44,556 nt of DNA, from the NCBI GenBank assembly GCA_904419785.1, contig CAJFSY010000015.1, positions 1 to 44,556 on the forward strand, read 5' to 3'. Shown piece after piece: positions 2,593 through 18,080 of this stretch (its first letter is position 1; every line of letters begins with the position of its first letter). This DNA is from an uncultured Neglectibacter sp. (GTDB lineage Bacteria; Bacillota; Clostridia; Oscillospirales; Acutalibacteraceae). The notes under the pieces are model-generated. The model had not been told where the DNA came from. It was given only the letters and a program-made list of their open reading frames with translations, and did not search any database. A program made the translations under genes and the position numbers.

Positions 2593-3783
2593 GTGATGGG
2601 ATTGCTGGAACTTGGTGTTGATGAATTCACGGTGGTTTGCCGGCCCACAGCCCTACATTCAAACTTTGTAAGGGACAACTGGCCCCATGTTGCTCAAAAC
2701 ATAATTCAAAAGCTGTCCGACCGCGGAGACCTGGAAACCGTTTTGGGACCTATACGGACTGAACTCAAGTGTTTGAAAGGGTATACTCATGGGTACACGT
2801 TTGGGGAACACAGCTTTTATAGCTGTGTTGCCTACCATATGGACAGAGACGACATGGGGGTGGCTTTACGATTTTCGGCCCAAGCGCTTGACTACTATTC
2901 TGATAAATCCGGGCTAAAAGTGTATGAGTTCCTTGGAAAAATCCAAGATACGGCCTACACAGCTAGGTTCAGCCGCATTGACTTCACAGCGGATTATATG
3001 AATTGCGGCATAGACCCAACCAAAATCTACCAGAAGTTAATGGACGGTCAATTGGCCATTTTCCGGGAAAAAACACGCAAAACAGCGTCTGGAAAAACAG
3101 AGACGAGTTATTTGAAAATTCCTTTTTCCTATCGGGGATTTTTAAAAGCTTCCGAAGTGCCAACGATTTATCTAGGAAGTCAAAAATCCAATGCGCTTTT
3201 ACGGATTTATGACAAGCGCCGGGAACAAATCGAGCGTAAGGGGCCTAAGCTGGATAAGGCTTTAGCTTGTGAAGATTGGACACGATTTGAAGCAGTTTTC
3301 AAAGGCGATTACGCCCACCAGCTGACAGACCAGTTACTTTCTGTGAAAAGCGAGGATGAATATCTCACTTTAATTGCCAATTCATTTTTACAAAAGTTTG
3401 ATTTTAGGGAAGTGGAAAACGGTGTGGTTCAGAATGAAGCAGAATTTTCAGAAATGCTATACGATGCATTGAAACAGGGAGATTTCGCGCTTCATGCGCC
3501 CACTTCTCGGAACTTCGATTTGATTCGAAGTATCCAATACCTGTTGAATGGCAGCGGTTTGTATCCGACCCTTTTCAAAATCCGGGAAATCTGGGGCTAT
3601 GAAGGTGTCAGCGAGTTCGTTAATCGTTTGATCATGTCTTTAGACACCTACGAGCCGAACAGGGATTGCCTGTCCTGGATAGCAAAACACGGGGACGACT
3701 ACAAAAGAAATTTCTCTGAGTTTTCTCTTTTCCTAAATTCTGCACTGCCTTTTTCGGATTTTGTCCCGGAGAATACAGCTTAA
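2593..3783 (+). CDS. Rep_trans-family relaxase / rolling-circle replication initiator (Tn916 Orf20, NicK-like)
   Basis: A 396-residue protein of the replication-initiation-factor family (PF02486 type). Family features visible are the central RFSRIDFTADY strand, the catalytic-tyrosine block LLRIYDKRREQ, and the following WTRFEAVFKGDYAHQL segment. Such proteins nick oriT, stay bound to the 5' end through the tyrosine, and start both transfer and rolling-circle replication of the element. The start is uncertain: GTG 2593, ATG 2596 and TTG 2602 all lie close behind a GGAAAGGGGG binding site, and TTG 2602 has the best spacing. An oriT-like hairpin sits 70 bp upstream. The gene is the last of the element in view; no integrase follows, so the element either has its recombinase left of the window or is an incomplete remnant. 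Confidence 0.87.
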   Translation: MMGLLELGVDEFTVVCRPTALHSNFVRDNWPHVAQNIIQKLSDRGDLETVLGPIRTELKCLKGYTHGYTFGEHSFYSCVAYHMDRDDMGVALRFSAQALDYYSDKSGLKVYEFLGKIQDTAYTARFSRIDFTADYMNCGIDPTKIYQKLMDGQLAIFREKTRKTASGKTETSYLKIPFSYRGFLKASEVPTIYLGSQKSNALLRIYDKRREQIERKGPKLDKALACEDWTRFEAVFKGDYAHQLTDQLLSVKSEDEYLTLIANSFLQKFDFREVENGVVQNEAEFSEMLYDALKQGDFALHAPTSRNFDLIRSIQYLLNGSGLYPTLFKIREIWGYEGVSEFVNRLIMSLDTYEPNRDCLSWIAKHGDDYKRNFSEFSLFLNSALPFSDFVPENTA

Positions 3784-5684: not shown

Positions 5685-6101
5685 TTACCCTTTATCGAAA
5701 GAGGGATTAAAAGCATAAAAGTTTTTGGAATCCAGCTTGTCGGTCATAATACGCAATCCTTCGCCAAATCTCTGGAAGTGGACGATTTCCCGTTCACGCA
5801 AAAACTTGATCGGGTCCCGAACGTCGGGATCATCGGTAAAGCGCAGGATATTGTCATAGGTCATGCGGGCCTTTTGTTCCGCACTCAAATTCTCATGCAG
5901 GTCCGCAATAGTATCGCCTGTGACTGAAAAGGTATTGGCATTAAACGGTGTACCTGAAGCCGCTACGGGATATACTGCGGCAGTATGGTCCACGAAATAG
6001 CTGTCAAAACCGGCTTCCTTGATCTGCTCGGGCGTTAACCCCCGGGTAAGCTGATACACAATCGTACCGACCATTTCCAAATGGCTCAGTTCTTCTGTAC
6101 C
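5685..6101 (-). CDS. cotJC: cotJC, 3' part: spore-coat manganese-catalase-like protein, interrupted by an inserted element
   Basis: This frame encodes the C-terminal two thirds of CotJC, a ferritin-like Mn-catalase-family protein of the spore coat. Reading from the core it gives GTEELSHLEMVGTIVYQLTR and runs to a normal end (AFNPSFDKG). The first 64 residues lie 11.3 kb away at 17443-17625 on the same strand. The few codons before the core here (ending HCDTTV) come from the inserted element and have no ribosome binding site, so this half is probably not translated alone. Joining the two halves at the 10-bp direct repeat gives exactly 600 nt (199 aa plus stop) with no frameshift, and rebuilds ILTDIGTEELSHLEM, the conserved metal-ligand region. 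The B. subtilis homologue is 189 aa. No extra lesions are seen, which argues that the gene is still under selection. Confidence 0.93.
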   Translation of the reverse strand, partial: GTEELSHLEMVGTIVYQLTRGLTPEQIKEAGFDSYFVDHTAAVYPVAASGTPFNANTFSVTGDTIADLHENLSAEQKARMTYDNILRFTDDPDVRDPIKFLREREIVHFQRFGEGLRIMTDKLDSKNFYAFNPSFDKG

Positions 6102-6123
6102 TACTGTAGTATCACAATGACGC
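6092..6123. other. Left attachment site of the cotJC element (core 6092-6101, arm 6112-6123)
   Basis: Core CTTCTGTACC is identical to the right-end core. The flanking base to the left differs (T here, C at the right end) and so does the base after it (T versus G), so the shared core is exactly 10 bp. The element-side arm TCACAATGACGC is the inverse of the right-end arm GCATCATAGTGA with 10 of 12 matches. Confidence 0.88.
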
Positions 6124-6269
6124 AATGTCTCTTATACCAGAAATAAAATTATCTTAAGCGAACGGACTCTTTTCTCACTACTATTGCTTTTGCAAATAGT
6201 TAAGTATAAATTATAGGAATTTGCTATTTTTATTTTGAGATTTTATAATAACCTCAGAGGTGAAACGAA

Positions 6270-6845
6270 ATGAAATTACATGAGTTTTTAGCGTATATGG
6301 ATAGCGGAAAAGAAGTCATCGCCAATTCAGAAATCCACCAGTGTATGCATCTGCTATCGCAGGAAGCAATACGATTAACCTCCGAATTGAACAGCCGTTA
6401 TCACACCGCCGAAGAAATTGTGGAATTGATCGGGCAAATAACCGGAAGACCAGTAGACAGCAGCTTTGCTTTATTCCCTCCATTTTACACAGATTGCGGA
6501 AAAAATCTTAAAATCGGCAAAAATGTATTTTTTAATTCGGGTGTTAAAATTCAGGATCAGGGCGGAGTAACCATTGAGGACGGTGTACTGATTGGGCATA
6601 ACACTGTAATCGCCACGCTGGATCACAACCTTGATCCCAAATTGCGTGGAAACCTCATTCCCGCGCCTGTTCATATCGGTAAAAACGTGTGGATTGGAGC
6701 GAACGCGACCATCTGTAAAGGAGTAACCATTGGTGATGGCGCGGTGATTGCAGCGGGCGCTGTAGTGGTAACAGACGTACCGGAAAACACTATATTTGGC
6801 GGTGTCCCCGCCAAACTTATTAAAAATATTCCTCAAACATCCTAA
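6270..6845 (+). CDS. Sugar O-acetyltransferase of the left-handed beta-helix family (maltose/galactoside type)
   Basis: A 191-residue protein, close to the usual 180-200 aa of the Maa/LacA group. The N-terminal 60 residues are the helical cap with C/H-rich segments; from residue about 75 on, hexapeptide repeats form the left-handed beta-helix: [18 protein letters not shown], then the catalytic-type loop with [23 protein letters not shown] and [15 protein letters not shown], ending with the acetyl-CoA-site signature [16 protein letters not shown]. It transfers acetyl from acetyl-CoA to a sugar hydroxyl; the acceptor is not predictable. A GAGGTGA-type binding site precedes ATG 6270. It is the only plus-strand cargo gene at the left end of the element and is convergent with the ribokinase operon, so it may be expressed independently. 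Confidence 0.85.
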
Positions 6846-6874
6846 GATAAAAAGGAAAAAATATTCTTCTTTTA

Positions 6875-6916
6875 TAAAAACGTCCCCACCTGTTCACTTT
6901 ACCAACAGATGGGGAC
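6875..6916 (-). terminator. Terminator of the element's sugar operon
   Basis: GTCCCCA plus CTGTT (6882-6894) pairs with AACAG plus TGGGGAC (6904-6916) with one mismatch between the two blocks. On the minus strand the hairpin is followed by GTTTTTAT (6882-6875). It lies 39 bp after the ribokinase stop. Confidence 0.75.
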
Positions 6917-6954
6917 ATCGTCATTGCAATTATTTATTGTGATATTTTAAAATT

Positions 6955-7878
6955 TTACCGTGCGCACACTTTCATTTCAACTTCCTCTTTCGAGGGGATG
7001 GACGTCTGTGCGCCAGGACGGGATACTACAATATCAGAGACACGGGAAGCAAATTCCGCCGCCTCTGCCAGATCCTGCCCTTGGGAAATGGCTACTGCCA
7101 ATGCCGCCACATAACTGTCTCCCGCAGCGGTAGTATCCACAACTTGAACCGTGGAATCCGCTTCCAGCCGCACTTCGGTGCCGTCTTCCCGCAAGAGATA
7201 AGACCCGGCCCCACCCAAAGTTACCAGCACATTTTTCACGCCTTTGCGCTGAAGGCTCAAGGCGTCCTGTTGAAGCGACTGGGGGTCATAGGGATGTCCC
7301 ATTAAAATAGAAAGCTCTGTTTCATTGGGCTTGATGAGATACAAGCACCGCAGCAGTTCCTCGGGCAGACCTTCCACCGCTGGGGCAGGGTCCAAGATCA
7401 CCTGTTTTCCCAAGCGATAAGCCTCCTTGGCCGCATAGATCACAGTCTCCAAAGGAACCTCTAGTTGAAGCACCAGGATATCGCATTCTTCCAGCAAGTG
7501 ATGCTGTTCTTTTACATAGTCTGGAGTCACTTGAGCATTGGCTCCTTGAAGCACTAAAATGGAGTTGTCACCGTTGGGAAGCACGCTGATCACAGCCATT
7601 CCGGTAGGCGAATCACCCGCTTTGCGGATAGCGGAAATATCTACCCCCACAGAACCAAGGCTCTCACAGAGCCGTTCCCCGTGAAGGTCGGCTCCTACAG
7701 CGCCCAGCATGGATACTTCCCCGCCCAGTTTGCCCATTGCATAGGCCTGGTTAGCGCCTTTACCGCCGGGCACAAGCCGCAGGTTCTTTGCCAAAATGGT
7801 CTCTCCTACAGCCAGTGGGTGAGGCAGGTCTGTGACAAAGTCCATGTTCATACTGCCGATTACCAAAAGCTTTTTCAT
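6955..7878 (-). CDS. rbsK: Ribokinase (PfkB family)
   Basis: A 307-residue PfkB-family sugar kinase of normal ribokinase length. It starts MKKLLVIGSMNMDFV, has the sugar-binding PGGKGANQA motif (about residues 37-45), the ATP-site region VTLGGAG and the C-terminal catalytic and anion-hole signature DTTAAGDSYVAALA, where the usual DTTGAGD has A for the first G while the catalytic Asp is kept. It would phosphorylate ribose (or a related pentose or nucleoside) at O5. ATG 7878 overlaps the upstream ADP-ribosylglycohydrolase stop (ATGA), so both are made from one message; the pairing suggests that a hydrolase releases a ribosyl unit which this kinase traps. Last gene of the operon, followed by a terminator. 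A second kinase of this family is fused to the operon's regulator. Confidence 0.9.
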   Translation of the reverse strand: MKKLLVIGSMNMDFVTDLPHPLAVGETILAKNLRLVPGGKGANQAYAMGKLGGEVSMLGAVGADLHGERLCESLGSVGVDISAIRKAGDSPTGMAVISVLPNGDNSILVLQGANAQVTPDYVKEQHHLLEECDILVLQLEVPLETVIYAAKEAYRLGKQVILDPAPAVEGLPEELLRCLYLIKPNETELSILMGHPYDPQSLQQDALSLQRKGVKNVLVTLGGAGSYLLREDGTEVRLEADSTVQVVDTTAAGDSYVAALAVAISQGQDLAEAAEFASRVSDIVVSRPGAQTSIPSKEEVEMKVCAR

Positions 7879-10001
7879 ACCGTTTCCAGACTCCTTACTT
7901 CCCAGTCACGAACCAGGCAATGGCTCCCCTTCTGAACAGCCAGGCCAACGCAGCCCTGATTCAGCGGCTCATTGTCCTCCCAATCCAAAAGGACTTCTCC
8001 GTCGATGGAAAGCTGGATTTTCCCGCCGTTGACCGCCAGGCTCAAGCGGTACTCCTTGCCGGTCTGCCAGGGGAATTCTTTTTCTACCAAAGTAGTGTAG
8101 CCATTCTGGTTTTTAAGCAGCGCTACCTTGCCCTCACCATTGAAGCCAGCGGCATAGCACCGCATAGCGCCTTGCACCCGGGCCTGAATCAAATGGACTT
8201 GACCGGTCACAGGCTGGAGCGTGCAGGAAAGGGCATAATTTTTCCACAAATGATGGCCAGTGTACATCTCGCCGAAATCAGCGCAGGACAGGCTCAGATA
8301 AGGCCCATCCAGATAAGTATGGCCTTTCAAACGCGCGAACTGGGGCACTTCTTGATGGATACCATTCCAATAATCCAAATCCACTTTGGAGAAATCCAGG
8401 CGGTAATCCGGTTCGCCTTCCACATACAGATCGTCCAAATAAGCCACCAGATCCCCTTGGGCAAATCCCACGGCTTTCCCGCAAAGGATCACGCCCACTT
8501 CTTGGATATACCCTTCCTGATTCCCAGGGATGGACAGGGAAAGCTCATGCCACGCGCTATCGGCCTCCACTTTCTCGCCGCGGATCATCTCTCCGGTGGC
8601 GCCGTTTTTGGCGTAGATCTGCACGGCAACATCCATGCCTTTGCAAGGCAGAGGCATCACGCTCAGGTGGACTGTCTGGCCGGGATACACCAAAGGCGCG
8701 AAGAAAGGATCGTACCGGGAATCGCTGAAATCTTCAGGGCCGTAATAAGTCTGCTTGTAGAAGCAGCATTCTTCCCCGGATTCAGACCCAGAAGCGGTCA
8801 GCTTTAACGAGCGGCGCCCTGTGTGTGCCTGCTCATCTGTGTTGCGGATATGGCACAATGCCTGGCCGCGGCTGCGGATGGCATGGGTGCTGCCGGGATA
8901 CTCGAAATGGCAGCTTTCCAACTGCTCGCCCAACAGTTTATCCCAAGGCGCACAGGGAGTCTCCCCTGCCAGAAGGTAAGCCATTTTCGCGAAATAGCTG
9001 GCGCCATAAGGCACGTCCATAGCGTTTAAGGAAGGAACTACGCTGGAACAAGCCATAAAATCGTTGATGGGCTTGCGCCACTTGTCGTAATCGATCCCAT
9101 CCAGGCCGCAATGCACGCCCATGATGCAGCCCACATTGCCCACATTGCAGTCTGTATCCCAGCCGCACATATTGCAGATGCAGAGCGTCCGGGTAAAATC
9201 GCCTCCGCCGTAAAGCATAGAGAGAACCATCACCGCGGCGTTGGGGATGATATGGCAGTTTCCAGGATATTTGTCATAGCCGAAATTCTCATAGATATAC
9301 TGGTAGCAGTCCCGCCAATTCTCGGGGTGCTCTTTATAATACTCCGTCACAGCGCGGACAACCCGGGCATATTCGCAGTCCTGAGGGATGTAATCCAGCG
9401 CCTTTTCCAGCACTTTTTCCAAATCAGGCTCCACAAACGCCAAGCTGATGGCGCAGGCAATGTACACGCCGCCCCACACGCCATTGCCGCCGTGGGTAAC
9501 GCTGGCGGCTTTTTCCGCCAGCTCAGCTGCCTGTTTGGGGTTGCCCGGAGATACCAGGCCCCAGGGGTCGATAAAAATCTGGCCGCCGATCTGTTCCGCC
9601 ATGGTGGAACCATTTTGCTCGATACTGCCGCTGCGAGGCGCGGGAATCCCATTGCGCAGGTTCAAATAAGCCGTGTGCTCGGTGGAAATTCCGTAGCCGC
9701 CCCACCAGAAGAAACCGTGCTCAAAGGGAGCGTAGTTGAGCAGCGCTTCCGCTACATCCTGGGCAGAGAAAGACTTCAGATCCTTGCAATCCTCCAAAGC
9801 GCGGATAAAGAACAACGGGCCGTTGCTGTCGTCATCAGCGGCGAAATTCTTATACTGAGCGGGATAATCCCACAGTTCTCCGAATACCCGTTGAATTTTG
9901 TCGTAAGTCCAGCCTTCCACAGCCGCGCCCAGACGAATGCCAATGACTTTTCCCATCCATCCGGCATAAACTTGTTCCATATAATTTTCAGGAAGTTTCA
10001 T
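7875..10001 (-). CDS. ADP-ribosylglycohydrolase-family protein with C-terminal sugar-binding-like domains
   Basis: A 708-residue protein. Residues 1 to about 370 are an ADP-ribosylglycohydrolase (ARH/DraG) fold: GWMGKVIGIRLGAAVEG at the N-terminus, the first metal site FAADDDSNG (about 53-61), a THGGNGVWGG loop and the second metal motif GWDTDCNVGNVG. These Asp residues bind the two Mg ions. The remaining 300 residues contain beta-rich segments (TGRRSLKLTASGS; SLAVNGGKIQLSIDGEVLLDWED) like a laminin-G/concanavalin-type module of glycoside hydrolases. Together they suggest an enzyme splitting an N- or O-ribosyl bond in a small glycoside rather than in a modified protein. There is no signal peptide, so it is cytoplasmic and would act on an imported substrate. 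Start ATG 10001 with AAAGGAGA; ABC permease genes precede and a ribokinase follows with a 4-bp overlap. The true substrate is unknown. Confidence 0.85.
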   Translation of the reverse strand: MKLPENYMEQVYAGWMGKVIGIRLGAAVEGWTYDKIQRVFGELWDYPAQYKNFAADDDSNGPLFFIRALEDCKDLKSFSAQDVAEALLNYAPFEHGFFWWGGYGISTEHTAYLNLRNGIPAPRSGSIEQNGSTMAEQIGGQIFIDPWGLVSPGNPKQAAELAEKAASVTHGGNGVWGGVYIACAISLAFVEPDLEKVLEKALDYIPQDCEYARVVRAVTEYYKEHPENWRDCYQYIYENFGYDKYPGNCHIIPNAAVMVLSMLYGGGDFTRTLCICNMCGWDTDCNVGNVGCIMGVHCGLDGIDYDKWRKPINDFMACSSVVPSLNAMDVPYGASYFAKMAYLLAGETPCAPWDKLLGEQLESCHFEYPGSTHAIRSRGQALCHIRNTDEQAHTGRRSLKLTASGSESGEECCFYKQTYYGPEDFSDSRYDPFFAPLVYPGQTVHLSVMPLPCKGMDVAVQIYAKNGATGEMIRGEKVEADSAWHELSLSIPGNQEGYIQEVGVILCGKAVGFAQGDLVAYLDDLYVEGEPDYRLDFSKVDLDYWNGIHQEVPQFARLKGHTYLDGPYLSLSCADFGEMYTGHHLWKNYALSCTLQPVTGQVHLIQARVQGAMRCYAAGFNGEGKVALLKNQNGYTTLVEKEFPWQTGKEYRLSLAVNGGKIQLSIDGEVLLDWEDNEPLNQGCVGLAVQKGSHCLVRDWEVRSLETV

Positions 10002-10037
10002 TTGATATCTCTCCTTTCTGAAGCGTTTGAAAACAAA

Positions 10038-10895
10038 TTAATCTTTAATACCGCTCATCACGATACCTTGTACGAAATACTTTTGAGCGAACATATACAC
10101 TACCAAAATGGGCAGCATGGAGATCAGCGCCCCAGCCATCATCTGGTTCCATTGGGTCACATAGGTACCCTGGAACTTGGCCAGTCCCATGGAAAGCGTC
10201 CAGTTTTCCTGGTTATTCAGGAAGATTAACGGACGCAGGAAGTCGTTCCAGGTATTCATAAAGGTGAAGATCACCAATGTCATCAAAGCAGGCTTGGAGT
10301 TTTTCAAAATAACCTCCCAGAAAATCCTGGGATAGCTGCATCCATCGATCATCGCTGCCTCTTCCAGCTCCCTGGGCAAAGTCAAGAAGAACTGCCGCAA
10401 AAGGAACGTGCCAAACGCGTTGAAAATTCCAATGATGATCAATGACCAGATATTATCGATCAAACCCAGCACCTTGATGATCTGGAACTGAGGGATCATA
10501 ACTACCTGGAAGGGGATCATCATGGTTCCCAAATAAACCACGAACAGCGCATTTCTGCCTTTGAACTTCAACCGGGCAAAGGCATAGGCAGCCATAGAGC
10601 AGGTGATCAATTGTCCCAAAATCGTGAATACCGTAATGACGATCGTGTTGATGAAGTAGGTTCCCCAAGGAGCCTGCTCAAACATATAAACATAGTTTTC
10701 CCATGCGATATGTTTTGGAATCCATACAGGAGGTGCCATAAACAGTTCGTCTATATCTTTCAACGAACAAGAGATCATCCACAAAAAGGGCACCAGCATG
10801 GTGATGGAGCATAAAATCAAAATTGTGTGAACAAGCACTCGGAAAAATATCTTTTTTCCCCGGCCTTTCCGCTTTTGTACCATGGTTCTTTCCAT
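10038..10895 (-). CDS. Carbohydrate ABC transporter permease (MalG type, CUT1)
   Basis: A 285-residue inner-membrane permease with six predicted helices. The EAA loop, EEAAMIDGCSYPRIFWEVILK, contacts the ATPase subunit, and the C-terminal GIVMSGIKD end is typical of MalG-like subunits. Start ATG 10895 is preferred because AGGAGG lies 8 nt upstream; GTG 10904 is in frame but overlaps that site. The gene starts 12 bp after the first permease gene. No ATPase gene is in the operon, so the importer must borrow a shared MsmX-like ATPase, as is usual for CUT1 systems in Firmicutes. Confidence 0.9.
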   Translation of the reverse strand: MERTMVQKRKGRGKKIFFRVLVHTILILCSITMLVPFLWMISCSLKDIDELFMAPPVWIPKHIAWENYVYMFEQAPWGTYFINTIVITVFTILGQLITCSMAAYAFARLKFKGRNALFVVYLGTMMIPFQVVMIPQFQIIKVLGLIDNIWSLIIIGIFNAFGTFLLRQFFLTLPRELEEAAMIDGCSYPRIFWEVILKNSKPALMTLVIFTFMNTWNDFLRPLIFLNNQENWTLSMGLAKFQGTYVTQWNQMMAGALISMLPILVVYMFAQKYFVQGIVMSGIKD

Positions 10896-10907
10896 TGTCT
10901 CCACCTC

Positions 10908-11807
10908 CTACGCGTTATCCCGTTCGCTCATTTTAAGCTGGATGATACTGGCCACGAAAATAATGATAAACAGAATATATGCCATGGCGGAAGCGTATCC
11001 CTGCTTGAAATATTGGAAAGCGTTCATGTAGATCAAATAACTCACCACTTGAGTTGCCGTTCCAGGGCCGCCTTTGGTCATGATATAGATCTGGTCGAAA
11101 GCCTGGAAGGAATTGATCATGCTGATGATGGTGACAAACATGATGGTGGGCTTGAGCATGGGCAGAGTGATGTGGAAGAATTTCTGCACCACGTTGGCCC
11201 CGTCGATATCCGCCGCTTCATACACAGCGGGAGAAACACCCTGCACACCAGCCAAAAGGATGACCGAGTTAAAGCCCAAACTTTTCCAAATGCTCATAAT
11301 GATAACGGAAGGCATAGCCCAAGCACTGCTGGTCAGCCAGGGCGGCTGGGGCAGGCCCAAAGACGCCAAAGCGGAATTGATCAGACCGAAGTCCTCATTA
11401 TACAGCCACTGCCATACCATGGCGATAGACGTATAAGACACGATAACCGGGATGAAAAACGCGGATTTATAAGCGTTCAATCCCCGAATCTTCTGGTTCA
11501 GCAGCACAGCCACAATAATGGAGAGCAGAACCCCCACAGGAACGGTACCGATGGTAAAATAAATTGTATGCCAAAGAGCGCTGCCGAAGTCGCCGTTGGT
11601 AAACAAATCGATATAGTTTTGCAAACCTACAAACTTTGGAGGCGTTACGCCATCGTAGTTTGTAAAGCTATAGTACAAAGACATGACTACCGGAAAAATA
11701 GTAAACACTAAAAAGCCAATAATCACAGGCAGCAGAAACAAGTATCCCCAAAAAGTCTCATTGGCGTTTAGGGGCTTTTTCTTTTTTGCGGTATTTTTCT
11801 CCGCCAT
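10908..11807 (-). CDS. Carbohydrate ABC transporter permease (MalF/UgpA type, CUT1)
   Basis: A 299-residue permease. After a basic cytoplasmic N-terminus (KNTAKKKKPLNANETFWG) come six hydrophobic segments beginning YLFLLPVIIGFLVFTIFPVV. The EAA loop reads YEAADIDGANVVQKFFHITLPMLKPT. ATG 11807 is chosen since GAGGTGA precedes it; the frame is open upstream to 11846 without a binding site. It pairs with the MalG-type subunit just downstream. A strong hairpin separates it from the binding-protein gene, which would let the cell make more binding protein than membrane subunits. Confidence 0.9.
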   Translation of the reverse strand: MAEKNTAKKKKPLNANETFWGYLFLLPVIIGFLVFTIFPVVMSLYYSFTNYDGVTPPKFVGLQNYIDLFTNGDFGSALWHTIYFTIGTVPVGVLLSIIVAVLLNQKIRGLNAYKSAFFIPVIVSYTSIAMVWQWLYNEDFGLINSALASLGLPQPPWLTSSAWAMPSVIIMSIWKSLGFNSVILLAGVQGVSPAVYEAADIDGANVVQKFFHITLPMLKPTIMFVTIISMINSFQAFDQIYIMTKGGPGTATQVVSYLIYMNAFQYFKQGYASAMAYILFIIIFVASIIQLKMSERDNA

Positions 11808-11867
11808 AGCTTCATTCACCTCAATTACAAAAATAGTGGAAAACACAGCCGGCCAGGTTTTATATAG

Positions 11868-11904
11868 AAAAAGGAACTTTTATGTGTATGATAAAAGTTC
11901 CTTT
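11868..11904 (-). terminator. Intercistronic hairpin between binding-protein and permease genes
   Basis: AAAGGAACTTTTA (11870-11882) and TAAAAGTTCCTTT (11892-11904) form a perfect 13-bp stem with a 9-nt loop, followed on the minus strand by TTTTTC. In ABC operons such a hairpin after the binding-protein gene acts as a partial terminator or mRNA stabiliser. Confidence 0.75.
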
Positions 11905-11931
11905 CTCTTCGTTCTATACAATCGCCAAACT

Positions 11932-13263
11932 TTATCCGGCCAGAATCGCGTTGATCTCAGTGATCAGCGCCTGCTGAGTCTCTTCGGGAGTGCTTTCGCC
12001 GATAAGCATCTTATCAACCACTTCCTGCAATTTGGTGTTAACCTCAGTGCGGTAAATGGACAATTGGTCAGTCATATCAACGTCCGGAACGGAATCCACA
12101 AAAGCTTGTACATTCTCAGGGAATTTGGAATCCAAAACGATCTGGTTCGCGGCTTCATCGGTGCTGCCGGGCAAAGCCATGTTGCTCTCAGCCACGATGC
12201 GCATGCCCTCGGGCCCAACCAGGAATTTCAGCAAGTCCCAAGCAGCGTCGGGATTCTTGGAAGTGCTGGAAATGCCCCAGTTCAAGATACCGGCTTTGGT
12301 CTTCTGATTTTTGTCCATAGGCATACGAACAACATCCCATTCAAAGGGCAGGGGGTCTGCTTTATAAGTGGGCAGCTGCCACAGGCCGGCAGATTCCATA
12401 GCCACTGTCTGGTTGCGGAACATAGCGTCGGCGCCCTTTCCCATAGCGGTTAATGCGGCAGGGTTGGGAGAAAGCTGATCTACAACCACCAGGTCATACA
12501 GGAACTGCAAAGCTTCCAGGGCCTCGGGAGTATCCAGGCCTTTTACCTCGGTGCCGCTGATATCATATTCCACACCTGCGCGGGAGAACCAGCCCAAAAC
12601 CTGGTCAGCCCAAGCGCCGGGATGACGGTAACCATACACTTTCTTCTCGGGGTCGGTCAGGGCTTTTGCAGCAGCATAGAAATCGTCGATAGTCCAATCA
12701 TCAGTGGGCAGCTCCACGCCGGCCGCTTTGAACATATCCTTGTTGTAATAGATCACAAAAGGAGATACTTCCTGAGGCAGAGCATACAATTTGTCTTCAT
12801 AGCGCAAAGGAGTCAGCAAAGAATCAGGATATTGACTCAGGTCAAAATCCGCATCGTTGGCGATATAATCGTCCAAGCTCAGCAGCACATTGCGGTAAGC
12901 CAAGGAATAGCACCATTCGTTGATATAGATGATATCAGGTGCTGTACCGGAACTGACCAGAGTCATCAGTTTCTGGAAACGCTCGGCGCCAATATCGATG
13001 GGCTCAATGGTAACATTGGGATGTTCTTCAGTATAGAGATCGAACTTTTGCTGATGGATCTCCATTTCCTGGGCGCTGCCGCTAACAGCGACCTGGATGG
13101 TAACGGGTTCCCCGTCGTTACCAGTAGAAGCAGTGTCAGAAGTTCCTTCTGTTCCCGAAGTTTTGTCCCCGCCACCGCTCTGCTGGTTTCCGTTGCCGGA
13201 ACAACCAACCAGCATCGTCGACAGCAACGCAACTGCTAAAAACATTGCTAAAAATCTTTTCAT
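11932..13263 (-). CDS. Extracellular solute-binding lipoprotein of a CUT1 sugar importer
   Basis: A 443-residue lipoprotein. The start ATG 13263 (MKRFLAMFLAVALL) has AGGAGGAAA upstream. The signal peptide ends in the lipobox LVGC (cysteine about residue 21), followed by a Gly/Ser/Thr-rich linker. The mature part is a MalE-like family 1 binding protein: VTIQVAVSGSAQEMEIHQQKF, TAPDIIYINEWCYSLAY, YALPQEVSPFVIYYNKDMFKAAGVELP, ending WDLLKFLVGPEGMRIV. It captures the sugar or glycoside outside the membrane and delivers it to the two permeases. It lies 32 bp after the regulator-kinase gene with no promoter between them. The ligand is unknown; neighbours suggest a ribose-containing glycoside. Confidence 0.92.
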   Translation of the reverse strand: MKRFLAMFLAVALLSTMLVGCSGNGNQQSGGGDKTSGTEGTSDTASTGNDGEPVTIQVAVSGSAQEMEIHQQKFDLYTEEHPNVTIEPIDIGAERFQKLMTLVSSGTAPDIIYINEWCYSLAYRNVLLSLDDYIANDADFDLSQYPDSLLTPLRYEDKLYALPQEVSPFVIYYNKDMFKAAGVELPTDDWTIDDFYAAAKALTDPEKKVYGYRHPGAWADQVLGWFSRAGVEYDISGTEVKGLDTPEALEALQFLYDLVVVDQLSPNPAALTAMGKGADAMFRNQTVAMESAGLWQLPTYKADPLPFEWDVVRMPMDKNQKTKAGILNWGISSTSKNPDAAWDLLKFLVGPEGMRIVAESNMALPGSTDEAANQIVLDSKFPENVQAFVDSVPDVDMTDQLSIYRTEVNTKLQEVVDKMLIGESTPEETQQALITEINAILAG

Positions 13264-13295
13264 GACTGTTTTCCTCCTGAAATGATAATACAGTA

Positions 13296-15170
13296 TTATT
13301 TCCGCGCAGAGCATAAAAACTCTAACGTATCCCGGTCGATCATCGCATCGGTCACTCCCCACTTTGTGGTGGAGAATCCCGCCGCAATCGTAGCCCTTCG
13401 GATTGACTCCCGCATATCCAAGCCTTTGGTCAAACAGACTGCCAAAGCCGCTCCGAAAGCATCCGCGGCACCAGTTGTATCAACTGCTTCAAAATCCGCC
13501 GCAGGAAAAAACTCACGGTTTTCCCCGTCTGTCCAATAGCAGCCTTTATAACCCAATGTTATAATCACTTGCTTTGCGCCTTTTTTCAAGAAATAATCCG
13601 CTTGTTCCTCAAAACCCTTTTCTCCAGGACAAAGCAAGGAACTTTCCCGTTCATTGGGCAAGAAAATATCCGTCTTTTGCAAAAGGCTGTCGTCAATCCG
13701 ATCCAAAGCAGCTGGCTTGATGATAATTTTCACCTTCCTCTCCCAAGCCATTTGGGCCGCTGTTTCTATCACATCTAAATCTAACTCTGTAGAAAGCAAA
13801 CAATATTCCGCGCCTTCAAAGGCGCCACCACTGTCACGAATCTCTTCCGAAGTCAACAAATCGTTGGCCCCGTTATATACCATAATGCCGCTTTCACCAT
13901 CTTCTTGAACGCAGATATACGCGTTCCCTGTAGAATCTCGGGATGTGCGGCGCACATATTCCATATTGACTCCGCTTGACTGCAGATGGTCCCATATCTC
14001 GCTACCGGCATAGTCTTTGCCAACCTTGCCAATGAGGGCCACTGAACCTTCCAACTTGGCAATGGCTACCGCTTGGTTGAGCCCTTTCCCACCAGGACAC
14101 AACATCCGCGAATTGGAAATTTCAGTTTGCCCAATGCGGGGGAACCTGCCTAAAGCCAAGGTGGTATCCATATTGATGGTACCGACCACAACCAGTTTCT
14201 GGCCCCGCTCATTAGAAGGAAGCTCCAAGCTTCCTCCTGTTTCCAACCGAAAAGCCGGCGCCTGCCACGGAGACAGCACGGCAGAGGAATCCTCAATCCG
14301 CTGAATCACCCGCTGGCAAGCCTGCTGAGCCAATTCCTCAAAAGGAAGAGGAATTGTGGCGAGCTTTGGAAGGAACCCACTGGCGTTCCCTTCTCCCAAA
14401 CTGAGCAGCGATAAATATTTCGGGATCTTTCTGTTTTTCCGAAAAGCCTCTTGATACATTTTCGAAGCGAGGTCGATATCATAGCAAAGAGCCGCGGTAT
14501 TTTCAAACAACATTTTTGTCGTGATCCCCGCTGCGTCATACCTGCATATCTGGTTTGCCGCAAAAGGCAGATGGTGCTGGGCCAAACTTTTTTGAAACCC
14601 TTCCACGAATAGATTCTCGCTGTCAGAATTGCCGTGGACTACACAAAATATCCTGCGGTGCTTTCGCCGTATAAGGACTTCCGTGGCCTCTCGCCCCAAC
14701 TGCTCAAAATCGATACCTGGCATTGAGGGCGAAAGCCGTTTGTTAAATTCCAGCGTACAGCAAGGTATACCGTCAAAATACTTTTCCCCATCTTGAGCGG
14801 AGCCCGGCACCCGGCAAAACACCATGCCGTCCAGCGGGTAACCTTTTAATATATCCAGGCACGCCTGCTCTTCCTCCACATTTTCAGCGAAACGGGCGAT
14901 CACAGAATACCCCGCCTGGGAGGCTGTTTTCATCAAGGCTTCCAAAAAAAGGTCCATGCCCGGCCGTTTGCAGAGAACCGCTCCCAGCAGGAACGAATGG
15001 GGCCTCATGGGAAAACGGCTGCCTGAATAAGCCTGATAATGGTTCTCTTTCATCACCGACAGGACTTTTTGCCTTGTCTCCTCACTAATGGCCTGGTCTT
15101 TTTTATTGAGAACCTTTGACACCGTGGAAATGGAAACACCGGCCAGCTTCGCGATTTCACGAATATTCAC
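13296..15170 (-). CDS. LacI-family repressor fused to a ribokinase-like PfkB kinase
   Basis: A 624-residue two-part protein. Residues 1-55 are a LacI HTH and hinge (MNIREIAKLAGVSISTVSKVLN; EETRQKVLSVMKENHY). Residues about 60-320 are the periplasmic-binding-protein-like sensor (FLLGAVLCKRPGMDLF; PLDGMVFCRVPGS; IPLPFEELAQQACQRVIQRI). From about residue 328 a complete PfkB kinase follows: LVVVGTINMDTTLALG, CPGGKGLNQAVAIAKL, VIITLGYKGCYW and DTTGAADAFGAALAVCL, with the catalytic Asp kept and G to A in the usual DTTGAGD. The frame is continuous. The start is GTG 15170 with an AAGGGTGA site. As first gene of the catabolic operon it likely represses its own promoter through the palindrome at 15206-15221. 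The fusion could let one protein both sense and phosphorylate the sugar. Confidence 0.9.
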   Translation of the reverse strand: MNIREIAKLAGVSISTVSKVLNKKDQAISEETRQKVLSVMKENHYQAYSGSRFPMRPHSFLLGAVLCKRPGMDLFLEALMKTASQAGYSVIARFAENVEEEQACLDILKGYPLDGMVFCRVPGSAQDGEKYFDGIPCCTLEFNKRLSPSMPGIDFEQLGREATEVLIRRKHRRIFCVVHGNSDSENLFVEGFQKSLAQHHLPFAANQICRYDAAGITTKMLFENTAALCYDIDLASKMYQEAFRKNRKIPKYLSLLSLGEGNASGFLPKLATIPLPFEELAQQACQRVIQRIEDSSAVLSPWQAPAFRLETGGSLELPSNERGQKLVVVGTINMDTTLALGRFPRIGQTEISNSRMLCPGGKGLNQAVAIAKLEGSVALIGKVGKDYAGSEIWDHLQSSGVNMEYVRRTSRDSTGNAYICVQEDGESGIMVYNGANDLLTSEEIRDSGGAFEGAEYCLLSTELDLDVIETAAQMAWERKVKIIIKPAALDRIDDSLLQKTDIFLPNERESSLLCPGEKGFEEQADYFLKKGAKQVIITLGYKGCYWTDGENREFFPAADFEAVDTTGAADAFGAALAVCLTKGLDMRESIRRATIAAGFSTTKWGVTDAMIDRDTLEFLCSARK

Positions 15171-15205
15171 GGCCCGATCACCCTTCCACTGAAGAATTTC
15201 GATTC

Positions 15206-15221
15206 AGGAAACATTTTTCCT
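15206..15221. promoter_or_regulatory. Putative LacI-type operator
   Basis: AGGAAA-CATT-TTTCCT is a perfect 6-bp inverted repeat with a 4-bp centre. It lies about 20 bp downstream of the -10 box and 36 bp upstream of the GTG start of the regulator gene, a normal roadblock position. Confidence 0.6.
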
Positions 15222-15240
15222 AAACTTGTTTCTTGGCTGT

Positions 15241-15269
15241 ATGATATCATGTTCACTGTCAAATGTCAA
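15241..15269 (-). promoter_or_regulatory. Promoter of the element's sugar operon
   Basis: On the minus strand TTGACA (15269-15264) and TATCAT (15246-15241) are separated by 17 bp. It drives regulator-kinase, binding protein, two permeases, glycohydrolase and ribokinase. Confidence 0.8.
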
Positions 15270-15488
15270 GAACACTTTTCACACTTTCTTCATTTTTCCG
15301 TCTCATTTTATACATTTTTTAGTAGCCGTTGGCAAACAAATAATTCCCCCAATCCCATTTAAGCCGCTGTGGTCCAAATCCCTATCCACCGAAATAGTTG
15401 TTCAAAAACATCACAGCCGGAAATCGAAGAATAAACGCTTTCTTTTTTCTATCAGTTTTCATACCGGCAGACTGTTGGTCTGTTTTCA

Positions 15489-15521
15489 AATCCGCTGGGA
15501 ATCCCAGCGGATTTTGTTTTT
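15489..15521 (+). terminator. Terminator or attenuator upstream of the recombinase genes
   Basis: AATCCGCTGGG (15489-15499) and CCCAGCGGATT (15503-15513) form a perfect 11-bp stem with a 3-nt loop, followed by TTGTTTTT. No gene ends just before it on the plus strand, so it may stop read-through towards the recombinase or act as an attenuator. The rest of the 15270-15640 gap holds nothing else recognisable, and no promoter for the recombinase could be assigned. Confidence 0.65.
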
Positions 15522-15646
15522 AACACCAGCGGACGTTTTATGGGGAATACTTCGACTCAACGGGAACCGCTTTTTTCAACACGGAAACGAGGACACGCAG
15601 AAAATCCGCCCTTCCCCCATAGAATTGGAGGAAAGGAGCGAACCCT

Positions 15647-15829
15647 ATGACAAAATCAGAATGGGCTCTGCAAAGCAGCCCGCAAAACTTAGAAATCCAT
15701 CGGAAATCCAATCCACAGTTCTACCGCTTGTATCAGCAATCGGTCCTGCTGGCTTTGCATAGTGAAGGTGTGTTGGACGATTCCCAGCTTCAACTATGTC
15801 TCGACGCGCTGGATTCTTCCACCACATGA
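15647..15829 (+). CDS. Small acidic protein upstream of the serine recombinase (60 aa), unknown
   Basis: Sixty codons starting ATG 15647 behind a strong GGAGGAAAGGAG site. The sequence ends HSEGVLDDSQLQLCLDALDSSTT, a short helical, acidic C-terminus, and the middle NPQFYRLYQQSVLLAL is amphipathic. It stops 29 bp before the recombinase start, so both are one transcription unit. I do not recognise the family for certain; similar small proteins occur upstream of serine recombinases in Clostridia. Its place makes it a candidate for a recombination directionality factor, the partner that lets a serine integrase excise, but this is inference only. A SHOCT-like short oligomerisation module is another possibility. 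Confidence 0.65.
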   Translation: MTKSEWALQSSPQNLEIHRKSNPQFYRLYQQSVLLALHSEGVLDDSQLQLCLDALDSSTT

Positions 15830-15858
15830 CCACAGTTCTATCAAAAGGAGCGTCTTTC

Positions 15859-17427
15859 ATGAAAGTTGCCGCTTACTGCCGGGTATCCACCGACAAGGAA
15901 GATCAAATCAATTCTTTTGAGAGCCAGCGGAAATATTTTCGGGAATACATTGAGCGCCGGCCGAACTGGGAACTTTACCAAATTTACGCCGATGAAGGTA
16001 TCACCGGCACCACCACGAAAAAGCGGGCTGCCTTTAACCATATGATCGCCGACGCCCAGCTTCACCGCTTCGACCTGATCCTCACAAAAGAGGTCAGCCG
16101 ATTTTCCCGGAACATCTTGGATACCATTTCCTATACCCGAAAGCTGCGCCGGCTGGGTATAGGGGTGGTTTTCATGAACGATGGAATCAACACCCTGGAC
16201 CCAGACTCGGAACTGCGGCTCTCCATCATGGGAAGCATCGCCCAGGAAGAAAGCCGCAAGACTTCTTCCAGAGTCAAATGGGGACAAACGCGCCGCATGG
16301 AACAAGGGGTGGTATTCGGCCGTTCCATGCTGGGATATGATGTGTGGGATGGAAAGATGACTATCAACCCGCAAGGAGCGTCTGTTGTGCGATTGATTTT
16401 TCAGAAATACGTCTACGAACACAAGGGTACTACCGTCATCGCCCGGGAACTGCGGGAATCGGGGTACAAAACCCTGACCGGCAGCCCAAACTGGAGAAAC
16501 ACCATTATACTAAAAATTTTGAAAAATGAAAAATACTGCGGGGATCTAAAACAGAAAAAGACGATTACCCCAGATTACCTCACTCACCAAAAGAAATACA
16601 ACCGGGGCGAGGAGGAATTTATCTTTCTGCGAAACCATCACGAACCCATCGTCAGCCGGGAGTTGTGGGAAAAAGCTCAGGAAGAAATGGCTCGCCGGAA
16701 CAATGGGAGAAACCACAGCGGCCCTGGCTGCCGCTTTCCGTTGTCAGGGAAAATAAAATGCGGTGAATGCGGACAGAGTTTTGTTTCCCGCAGCCGCAAA
16801 CGAAAAAACGGAACCATCTATAAGGTATGGCGATGCGGTACCGCCACAGCAGAGGGAAAGCGCCGCATCGATATGGCAGGCAATATTATCGGATGCAATA
16901 CAGGCTACCAGCTTCGGGACGAGGCTGGGCTAGAGATGGTGCGGCGGTCGGTAAATATGCTGAAGCTGGATACACGAGCTGTCATCCGCAGCATCACTCA
17001 TATCGTCCTGAAAGTCCTTCAGCCCACCTGTGACAGCAGACAGACCGGCGTGGAACACCTGAGAAAAGAGTTGGAGCAGACGGAAGAAAAGAAAAAAGGC
17101 GTGCTGGACGCTTTCTTTGCAAAAAGTATTTCGGAAGCCGACATGCGGCTGATGAACCGCGAGTACGACCGCCGCATCGTCAAACTCAACGAAGAGATCG
17201 CGAGGACAGAGAAACAGGAGAACTTGCCCCGCCAAAGAGCGCTACTGGAAAAGGAACTCCACGCCAAGGTGATGGATATTGTCAGCGGGAAAACTGCTTG
17301 CGGCAACTTCTACGGCAATCTATTGGACTATATCACAGCCTACCCAGACCGGCGCCTGGAAGTGCGCTTGAAATTCTTTCCCGGGAAATGGACCTATACC
17401 CCCAAAAACGCGAAAGACGCATCATAG
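15859..17427 (+). CDS. Large serine recombinase of the cotJC element
   Basis: A 522-residue large serine recombinase. The resolvase domain (1-150) has the nucleophile in AAYCRVST (Ser10), SFESQRKYFREYI, the arginine motif LTKEVSRFSRNILDT and SIAQEESRKTSSRVKWG before the long helix. A recombinase domain (about 165-270; GYDVWDGKMTINPQGASVV, VIARELRESGYKT) is followed by a zinc ribbon (KIKCGECGQSFVSR through WRCGT to IIGCNTG) and a coiled-coil stretch (LRKELEQTEEKKKGVLD). This is the full architecture of integrating/excising enzymes such as SpoIVCA of skin, whose length is similar. ATG 15859 has AAAAGGAG upstream; the frame is open to 15796 but not conserved-looking. The stop lies 5 bp from the right core, as usual for integrases next to their attP. 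Confidence 0.95.
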   Translation: MKVAAYCRVSTDKEDQINSFESQRKYFREYIERRPNWELYQIYADEGITGTTTKKRAAFNHMIADAQLHRFDLILTKEVSRFSRNILDTISYTRKLRRLGIGVVFMNDGINTLDPDSELRLSIMGSIAQEESRKTSSRVKWGQTRRMEQGVVFGRSMLGYDVWDGKMTINPQGASVVRLIFQKYVYEHKGTTVIARELRESGYKTLTGSPNWRNTIILKILKNEKYCGDLKQKKTITPDYLTHQKKYNRGEEEFIFLRNHHEPIVSRELWEKAQEEMARRNNGRNHSGPGCRFPLSGKIKCGECGQSFVSRSRKRKNGTIYKVWRCGTATAEGKRRIDMAGNIIGCNTGYQLRDEAGLEMVRRSVNMLKLDTRAVIRSITHIVLKVLQPTCDSRQTGVEHLRKELEQTEEKKKGVLDAFFAKSISEADMRLMNREYDRRIVKLNEEIARTEKQENLPRQRALLEKELHAKVMDIVSGKTACGNFYGNLLDYITAYPDRRLEVRLKFFPGKWTYTPKNAKDAS

Positions 17428-17442
17428 TGACCCTTCTGTACC
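17419..17442. other. Right attachment site of the cotJC element (arm 17419-17430, core 17433-17442)
   Basis: Core CTTCTGTACC matches 6092-6101. The arm GCATCATAGTGA overlaps the recombinase stop codon and is inverted relative to TCACAATGACGC at the left end. In the circular form the arms would flank the core with 22 bp between them. On the host side the core continues into the palindrome CCGATATCGG. Confidence 0.88.
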
Positions 17443-17625
17443 GATATCGGTCAATATAGCTTTCAGCTCCGGCAAAGGCATGGTGTAGCGCTGGCTCAAA
17501 TAGCGCAGGGACGCGCCGATCTCTCCATGGGGGCCTCCATATTGGCTGATGATCATCTTTGCCAGGCGGGGGTTGGTGTTCTTGATGTGGATAGGATACT
17601 GTAAGCGTTTCTCATAAACAAACAT
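17443..17625 (-). CDS. cotJC: cotJC, 5' part: first 61 codons before the inserted element
   Basis: ATG 17625 follows the cotJB stop by 3 bp, with GGAGGGG as binding site. The frame gives MFVYEKRLQYP, then SQYGGPHGEIGASLRYL and ends PELKAILTDI before the core, exactly the N-terminus of CotJC. In the integrated state it reads through the core into element DNA and stops after GSL at 17422, giving a 67-aa stub. After excision it joins the 3' part at 5685-6101. CotJC belongs to the Mn-catalase branch of the ferritin-like superfamily and is made in the mother cell with CotJA and CotJB as part of the inner spore coat; in B. subtilis the operon is under sigma-E. No sigma-E promoter could be recognised with confidence here. 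Confidence 0.93.
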
Positions 17626-17628
17626 CTG

Positions 17629-17880
17629 TCAATTCCCCTCCTTTTCCCAAGGCCACGGGTCGCTTACCCAAGCCCAACGGGTCGTTTCCTGGCTGGAGTC
17701 TCCCAGGGGGCCATATTTCTCTTCATACTCTTTTTTCAGACGGTCCGCTTTGGCGGTATATTCCTCCAACTTTCGGATGGCGTCTTTATTGTTGGGATGG
17801 GTATCCAAAAACAAGTGGAGTTCCCAGCAAGCAAAACGGGCGGCGTAAACGCGCTTTCGCATCAGTTGTTCGTCCTTCAA
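17629..17880 (-). CDS. cotJB: CotJB spore-coat protein
   Basis: An 83-residue protein matching CotJB: the aromatic-rich helix AARFACWELHLFLDTHPNN, a charged middle (KLEEYTAKADRLKKEYEEKYG) and the C-terminal YGPLG...WAWVSDPWPWE signature. Start is TTG 17880 with GGGGGGAG upstream; it overlaps the cotJA stop by 4 bp (TTGA), and cotJC starts 3 bp after its stop. CotJB acts with CotJA and CotJC in the spore coat; its biochemical role is not known. Confidence 0.92.
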   Translation of the reverse strand: MKDEQLMRKRVYAARFACWELHLFLDTHPNNKDAIRKLEEYTAKADRLKKEYEEKYGPLGDSSQETTRWAWVSDPWPWEKEGN

Positions 17881-18080
17881 CGAGGCTCCCCCCTTCTGCC
17901 GTAAAACGGCTTATCTAAAACAGGAAACAGCGTGCCCGCATCCAAGGCCCGCTCTATGGAGTGAAGTTCTTCTCCCCACTGCTGAAAAGGTACATATGCC
18001 ATGCCGGGTACCGGGTCTTTCGGCAACGGGCTGCGGCCTTCATGCAGATCACAAGCTTTGCCCATCATTTCTTCCGCCAA
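17877..18080 (-). CDS. cotJA: CotJA spore-coat-associated protein
   Basis: A 67-residue protein with the CotJA pattern: PKDPVPGMAYVPFQQWGE, then the helix LHSIERALDAGTLFPVLDKPF. Start is TTG 18080 behind AAAGGGG. It is the first gene of cotJABC and is expected to be transcribed in the mother cell. B. subtilis CotJA is 82 aa, so this one is a little short at its ends. Confidence 0.9.
   Translation of the reverse strand: MAEEMMGKACDLHEGRSPLPKDPVPGMAYVPFQQWGEELHSIERALDAGTLFPVLDKPFYGRRGEPR

Follow-up and report, generated by a model that had tools for sequence, protein, structure and literature searches.

How can a spore coat gene that is interrupted by a large mobile element still serve its host? 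The question is raised by contig CAJFSY010000015.1 of an uncultured Neglectibacter sp. (assembly GCA_904419785.1; the genus is placed in the Oscillospiraceae in the NCBI taxonomy), of which the whole stretch of 44,556 nucleotides, hereafter the window, was analysed. Here cotJC, a spore coat gene of the Mn-catalase family, consists of two same-strand pieces interrupted at codon 62 by an intervening element of 11,341 bp (6102-17442, one core copy counted in). The 5' part (17443-17625, minus strand; codons 1-61 with the ATG at 17625) matches the Mn_catalase profile at 1-65 (E 6e-18), and the 3' part (5685-6091, minus strand) runs to the stop and matches the profile at 61-197 (E 1.9e-30). The 10-bp core CTTCTGTACC occurs exactly twice within the window, in direct orientation and with a spacing of 11,341 bp. 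The probable crossover dinucleotide, CC (GG of codon 62 on the gene strand), lies at 17441-17442 in the right copy (17433-17442) and at 6100-6101 in the left copy (6092-6101). When the pieces are joined at CTTCTGTACC, a frame of 600 nt (199 codons plus stop) results, which reads ...ILTDIGTEELSHLEM... across the junction. Directly upstream of the 5' part lie cotJB (17629-17880; CotJB Pfam, E 4.3e-27) and cotJA (17877-18080; CotJA Pfam, E 2.7e-16), both on the minus strand, and the operon order cotJA-cotJB-cotJC is preserved. A large serine recombinase (LSR) of 521 amino acids (15862-17427, plus strand), convergent with the cotJ genes, ends 5 bp before the right core. The preliminary description of this stretch had claimed a cotJC split by an 11,341-bp element and restored exactly by its removal, the normal operon order upstream and a serine recombinase ending 5 bp from one core; all of these claims stand.

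In the window's own genome (2.23 Mb, 38 contigs), no second cotJC was found and the two pieces were the only matches, so the intact copy elsewhere that the preliminary description had considered did not appear; inactivating mutations in the halves, also considered there, were likewise not found in the joined 199-codon frame. The genome contains a full-length spoIVA (profile 1-492) and a gene matching the sigK model over its full length (2-226) at a score under the model cut-off, thus of sigK or sigE type, as expected of a spore former. The CotJC protein of Ruminococcus bromii YE282, a species which we take to belong to the same GTDB family as the window organism, shares 74% identity with the one encoded by G216, a genome of the window's genus. 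Strain L2-63 of R. bromii is described as a spore former (PMC5814915).

Split cotJC genes and site-dedicated recombinases in the order

A family sample of 200 genomes, including the window's own, was searched with the joined CotJC protein, and a cotJC match was obtained in 153. Among the matches listed, 66 were full-length (that of G104 with 53% identity over 1-188), which provides the uninterrupted relatives for which the preliminary description had proposed a search, and 61 of the 153 had a break at one of four positions that recur: near codons 26 (16 copies), 61 (23, including 2 contig-end breaks), 136 (10), and 177 (12, including 3 contig-end breaks). The other 26 comprised 2 with only a 34-35% identical paralogue, 5 partial copies of ambiguous status, and 19 that were not among the matches listed. 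In the window's genus, 27 of the 29 genomes searched had a match, with 9 full-length and 14 broken copies (1 at a contig end). An order sample of 79 genomes included 74 from outside the family, in which 33 copies were counted manually as full-length and at least 18 as having breaks at these same positions, the latter with contig ends unchecked and distributed in 11 of 25 other families. A single cotJC gene may be divided into as many as four pieces, as found on a single contig in G106 and over several contigs in G021, G067, and G099, and two genomes of other families (G263 and G269) have three correctly ordered pieces on a single contig. Among genomes with at least two pieces on one contig, 34 have them collinear on one strand and 5 do not (G201 was left out of this count). 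The phenomenon is thus wider than the single element of the preliminary description, involving several sites across the order.

General fragmentation of the assemblies was considered as the cause and rejected: SpoIVA, which is 2.5 times longer than CotJC, was above the cut-off in 163 of the 171 genomes with a match, and only that of G137 was short (1-459) among the matches listed. An assembly artefact was also rejected, because the same arrangement is present in dozens of genomes, including the single-contig G054, G173, G152, and G007. The split in the window can be regarded as real rather than a chance configuration because relatives show this split again, next to related recombinases.

In total, 40 junctions were tested with both sides available (those of the window and its relatives, some across contigs and with genomes having inverted or out-of-order pieces included). 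Rejoining created a stop at none of them, both sides being anchored in the gene frame and the frame therefore being partly given by construction. The shared cores are 0-17 bp long, and the two of 0 bp are at site 177 (G186 and G021, the reading of the latter being one residue off owing to a one-codon insertion). In the site-61 clade to which the window belongs, all 10 of the junctions aligned for each side have GG at codon 62; as exceptions at this site, the best-scoring crossover of G228 is at codon 59, and G106 and G021, which are unaligned there, are cut at codon 63. In a second site-61 clade, the cut lies at codons 64-66 (G127 and G209).

The joined CotJC, whose alignment with homologues the preliminary description had left to be made, aligns with the Mn catalases 1jku of L. 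plantarum (E 4.5e-18) and 6j42 of Anabaena (Alr3090; E 9.5e-25) and retains the five ligand positions. From the 1jku ligands, which we take to be E35, E66, H69, E148, and H181, the corresponding positions in CotJC are E35, E65, H68, E136, and H169, and the five residues are present in 79 of 79 ungapped intact cotJC copies. The insertion places, at about codons 28-35, 62-66, 134-137, and 172-178, are each located at a metal-ligand motif. Core-centred 40-bp windows were only moderately conserved at the DNA level (62nd-87th percentile), and conservation of the DNA was rejected as a full explanation of the four sites, extreme conservation being unsupported. The sites are better described by their proximity to the metal-ligand motifs. 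The same geometry bears on the idea that each piece is translated on its own and that the products form a split protein without DNA rearrangement. Some 3' pieces do lie within longer open frames, but the breaks adjoin the ligand motifs and some pieces have only about 25-35 codons, and we regard this idea as scarcely credible.

Both ends were retrieved on one contig for 40 elements, and 39 of these have an LSR of at least 450 amino acids no more than 2.5 kb from a junction (manual count). In the final tree of 66 recombinases, those of sites 26 (18 sequences), 136 (11), and 177 (14) each form a single clade at 100/100, and those of site 61 form two clades, one of 18 that includes the LSR of the window and one of 5. 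The site labels require three changes on the tree, which is the minimum, and none of 200 shuffles gave a number as low. For all nine recombinases from other families, the nearest BLAST hit was a recombinase of the same site. Three sequences not near a junction (L140_10774, L072_13476, and L077_12589) and five LSR pieces shorter than 330 amino acids (in L037, L044, L145, L236, and L249) were left out of this tree; two automatic labels were corrected by position to site 61 (L138_6886 and L141_8545), and 17 labels of later loci were set manually, the least sure being L247, whose piece starts near codon 105 by tblastn. The pattern was the same in two earlier trees with the far rows and the automatic labels retained, which required 6 and 8 changes. 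The recombinase lineages are thus dedicated to individual cotJC sites and comprise at least five clades. The smallest element has about 2.3 kb (G119) and the largest about 60 kb (between the pieces of G127), and the cargo is unrelated between the elements examined; for example, G054 carries genes for FIST-GGDEF, clostripain-like, and FG-GAP proteins.

Selection on the separated pieces and the proposed excision

Four species of another genus (G054, G173, G232, and G231) share one site-26 element that is collinear over about 9 kb, with 83-92% nucleotide identity in the main blocks (G231 is in several blocks, one at 70%). The dS values of its recombinase (0.34-0.56) and of the cotJC 3' piece (0.26-0.56) match, which shows that the element was inherited. 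Since the insertion, the detached 3' piece of 173 codons has evolved with a dN/dS of 0.016-0.052 and an excess of changes at codon position 3 (P 6e-7 to 1e-14 in six non-independent pairs), whereas the recombinase has a dN/dS of 0.13-0.14. The 29-codon 5' piece (18 codons in G231, the rest of which reads N) shows a dN of 0-0.025 at a dS of 0.18-0.39, a small sample that is in line with the 3' piece. For intact cotJC in the window's genus, the dN/dS is similar to that of the detached 3' piece, 0.025-0.066 at a near-saturated dS of 1.1-2.6. Among genomes sharing elements at sites 61 and 177, the dS is saturated or the recombinase has apparently spread horizontally, and the evidence for selection is weaker. 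In 33 fully rejoined genes, including those of G228, G202, G206, and G099, no stop was found, and all five Mn ligands are in register in 31; in the other two (G119 and G021), the motifs are visible and a one-codon insertion shifts the ungapped mapping.

The conclusion that split cotJC is still in use, as the preliminary description had proposed together with its rebuilding by removal of the element, is well supported by the sequences, because of the absence of stops at the 40 junctions, the retained active-site residues, the purifying selection, and the site-dedicated recombinases. In the mechanism we propose, the segment 6102-17442 would be an integrated, non-phage-looking element that inserts by means of its own LSR into the codon-62 region of cotJC, with the crossover at GG. 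The LSR and a directionality factor would recombine the two junctions, and the element would leave as a circle, so that an uninterrupted cotJC is rebuilt and CotJC can be made and placed in the coat. A candidate for the directionality factor is a 60-amino acid open reading frame (ORF) with a Shine-Dalgarno sequence directly upstream of the LSR (15647-15829, plus strand), for which no Pfam match was found; this role, which would resemble that of GirX for the gin element, is a guess from its position. A profile built from five such ORFs and applied to 17 recombinases of the clade with 450 bp upstream matched before 11 of them (the 5 seeds and 6 more). It appears highly probable that cotJC is restored by site-specific excision, probably in the mother cell during sporulation with the forespore keeping the element. 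It also seems fairly likely that cotJC is habitually stored in two to four pieces across the order and that the site-dedicated recombinase lineages join them only in the doomed mother cell.

Several observations weigh against excision as proposed here. The cleanest selection test comes from the site-26 element of another genus, and the insertion in the window may itself be young. The pieces are inverted in G202 and G228 and out of order in G206, G099, and G203, so simple excision would not rebuild these five genes as drawn. The exact circle junction of the window element had no match (0) in viral contigs. Six of the 17 clade recombinases, the two nearest to the LSR of the window among them, have no match to the small-ORF profile upstream. 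The G180 element has no full-length LSR, containing only a 201-amino acid ORF, and the search with a site-177 recombinase found nothing there; the recombinase of G204, for which one side was seen, has a frameshift close to its start in this assembly. In at least 11 family genomes spoIVA is present yet no cotJC match was found, indicating that cotJC is dispensable in some lineages. The last two points also favour an explanation by plain disruption, in which cotJC is dispensable, LSR elements accumulate in it, and the split copies are dead genes in which decay is not yet visible. So does the apparent horizontal spread of some site-61 elements (for G214 and G202, a recombinase dS of 0.56 versus a cotJC dS of 1.5), by which several insertions may be young. 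Such dead genes are nevertheless unlikely in view of the low dN/dS of the detached piece across four species with one inherited element, the 33 rejoined genes without a stop, four-piece ones included, and the LSR beside one junction in nearly every element.

Excision, its timing, its cell type, and the role of the small ORF are what we infer; that excision would take place during sporulation and in the mother cell only is suggested by CotJC being a coat protein and by the precedents of skin, SPbeta, gin, and yin. The upstream alignment of the shared site-26 recombinase contains a conserved block whose direction and sigma type are unclear, and no promoter is claimed. It is on this point that excision outside sporulation control, i.e. 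random or stress-driven loss in growing cells with the gene working in an element-free subpopulation, has to be weighed. Low-rate excision during growth is possible for serine-recombinase elements, and no sporulation promoter has been established from the site-26 alignment. For yin of C. botulinum, both forms in one culture are described (PMC10747680). However, CotJC serves the terminal cell and loss in growing cells would be expected to gradually empty the site, whereas the site-26 element has persisted through speciation and up to three elements are found in one gene. Excision of this uncontrolled kind is thus quite unlikely, and developmentally timed excision is preferred.

Relation to known intervening elements

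Sporulation genes described as interrupted by such elements are sigK (skin), spsM (SPbeta), spoVFB (vfbin), gerE (gin), and yabG (yin) (PMC10747680), and gin is described as a non-phage element that uses a serine recombinase and the additional factor GirX (PMC5595907). In each, a recombinase element resides in a sporulation gene and excision at a short core restores the gene. The window element has the same features, i.e. an interrupted sporulation gene, a site-specific recombinase, and an ORF-restoring core; the further feature of selection despite interruption was found on the site-26 element rather than on the insertion in the window. The cotJC elements differ from the skin/gin/yin type in their target, in having four recurrent sites in one short gene and at least five recombinase clades, in the presence of two or three elements per gene at once, and in their spread over many families of one order. 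Searches of the open-licence PMC literature, one of them on DNA rearrangement in gut Ruminococcaceae, listed no report of cotJC as the target of an excision element. cotJC as an interrupted sporulation gene is thus apparently unreported in that literature, although gene rearrangement of this sort is already known elsewhere. The closest case found is the C. difficile phage phi027, which adjoins a CotJC homologue; what is described there is the loss of a neighbouring gene downstream of attR and no gene interruption (PMC11222575).

The heterocyst elements (in nifD, fdxN, hupL, and nifH, with XisF-type serine recombinases) resemble the cotJC elements in the use of several sites per gene, and they are excised in a terminally differentiated cell, as is proposed here for cotJC. 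They are described as variable in content, with up to four in nifD of Rivularia (PMC4874684). They differ in being cyanobacterial, in residing mostly in nitrogen-fixation genes, and in using both tyrosine and serine recombinases, whereas cotJC is a spore coat gene of Clostridia. In NCBIfam, XisF was among the matches of the window LSR at 106.6 bits against a cut-off of 375, and the best matches were CcrB and CcrC at 116-118 bits against cut-offs of 900. The staphylococcal CcrA/B/C proteins belong to the same broad LSR family with a different target, and we know of no developmental role for them. With the Mn catalases 1jku and 6j42, the joined CotJC shares the five ligand positions; it differs from them in being a short version for the spore coat, with its gene in the cotJABC operon.

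Only a handful of single cases of developmental gene rearrangement are known from spore formers. If the proposed excision is true, these loci would represent somatic genome editing like that of the heterocyst elements, converging repeatedly on one coat enzyme, in which the elements would gain a lineage-safe home and cargo space and the host a lock against production of the coat enzyme before the terminal cell. They may also serve as a natural experiment on why genes of terminal cells become homes for mobile DNA, allow prediction of which gut commensals edit their genomes on sporulation, and be a source of dozens of serine recombinases whose attachment-site pairs can be inferred. For annotation, they are a warning that a cotJC called broken or missing in these genomes may be functional.

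Contents of the window element and irregular loci

The window element contains the LSR, the small ORF, and a sugar-uptake/ADP-ribosyl-hydrolase operon. The LSR, for which a start at ATG 15862 behind AAAGGAG is likelier than one at 15796, has the N-terminal resolvase, recombinase, and zinc ribbon domains required of large serine recombinases (Pfam Resolvase, Recombinase, and Zn_ribbon_recom). The Pfam-annotated cargo on the minus strand encodes a LacI-type regulator fused to a PfkB kinase (13296-15170), a sugar ABC solute-binding protein (11932-13362), two ABC permeases (10908-11846 and 10038-10904), an ADP-ribosylglycohydrolase family protein (7875-10001), and a PfkB (ribokinase-like) kinase (6955-7878), and a hexapeptide-repeat, acyltransferase-like protein is encoded on the plus strand (6270-6845). 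The fusion of the LacI-type regulator with the PfkB sugar kinase in a single ORF is, to our knowledge, an unusual domain combination. None of the eight element genes matched phage structural or lysis genes in the Pfam scan. A recombinase scan found no relative in a genome-contig collection and none in a viral-contig collection. The element arms are attP-like, with an inverted-repeat match at 17 of 28 positions (2 of 20,000 shuffles were as good). A terminator-like hairpin (15488-15514) with 12 pairs, a 3-nt loop, and a T-rich tail lies in the interval that separates the cargo operon from the recombinase unit; within 15180-15880, three terminator-like sites were found against 0.7 expected. A minus-strand match to a sigma-70-like promoter (15241-15269; 11/12 plus TG) is located ahead of the LacI-PfkB gene, one being found against 0.7 expected by chance. 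On the left of the window, a Rep_trans replication initiation factor gene (2593-3783; Pfam E 1.2e-15) is possibly derived from another mobile element.

Some cotJC loci are irregular in other ways. In G202 and G228, where the pieces are inverted, recombination between inverted att sites would produce an inversion instead of a deletion, by which the gene could still be joined. Three genomes, G098 (L050), G185 (L083), and G145 (L084), contain an intact cotJC and a near-identical partial copy of its 3' end 3-15 kb downstream, with identities of 98% over 446 bp in G098, 94% over 277 bp in G185, and 100% over 267 bp with a gap followed by 90% over 83 bp in G145. No LSR was found in the fetched region around any of these three loci. 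The first bases of the G098 copy are the GG of codon 62; by eye, the TCAGTA in front of them is that of the G191 element arm. From their sequences, these loci look like genes made whole by another route. Extra 3' copies also occur beside a split or contig-edge copy in G119 (L087; 95% over 171 bp) and G171 (L085; 94% over 78 bp), and the extra copies possibly reflect repair by a carried or duplicated 3' end. In G191 (L045), a small ORF and a recombinase gene lie no more than about 200 bp beyond the 5' piece of cotJC, in the same orientation, and could be read from the cotJ promoter, which would simply couple excision to expression of the coat gene.

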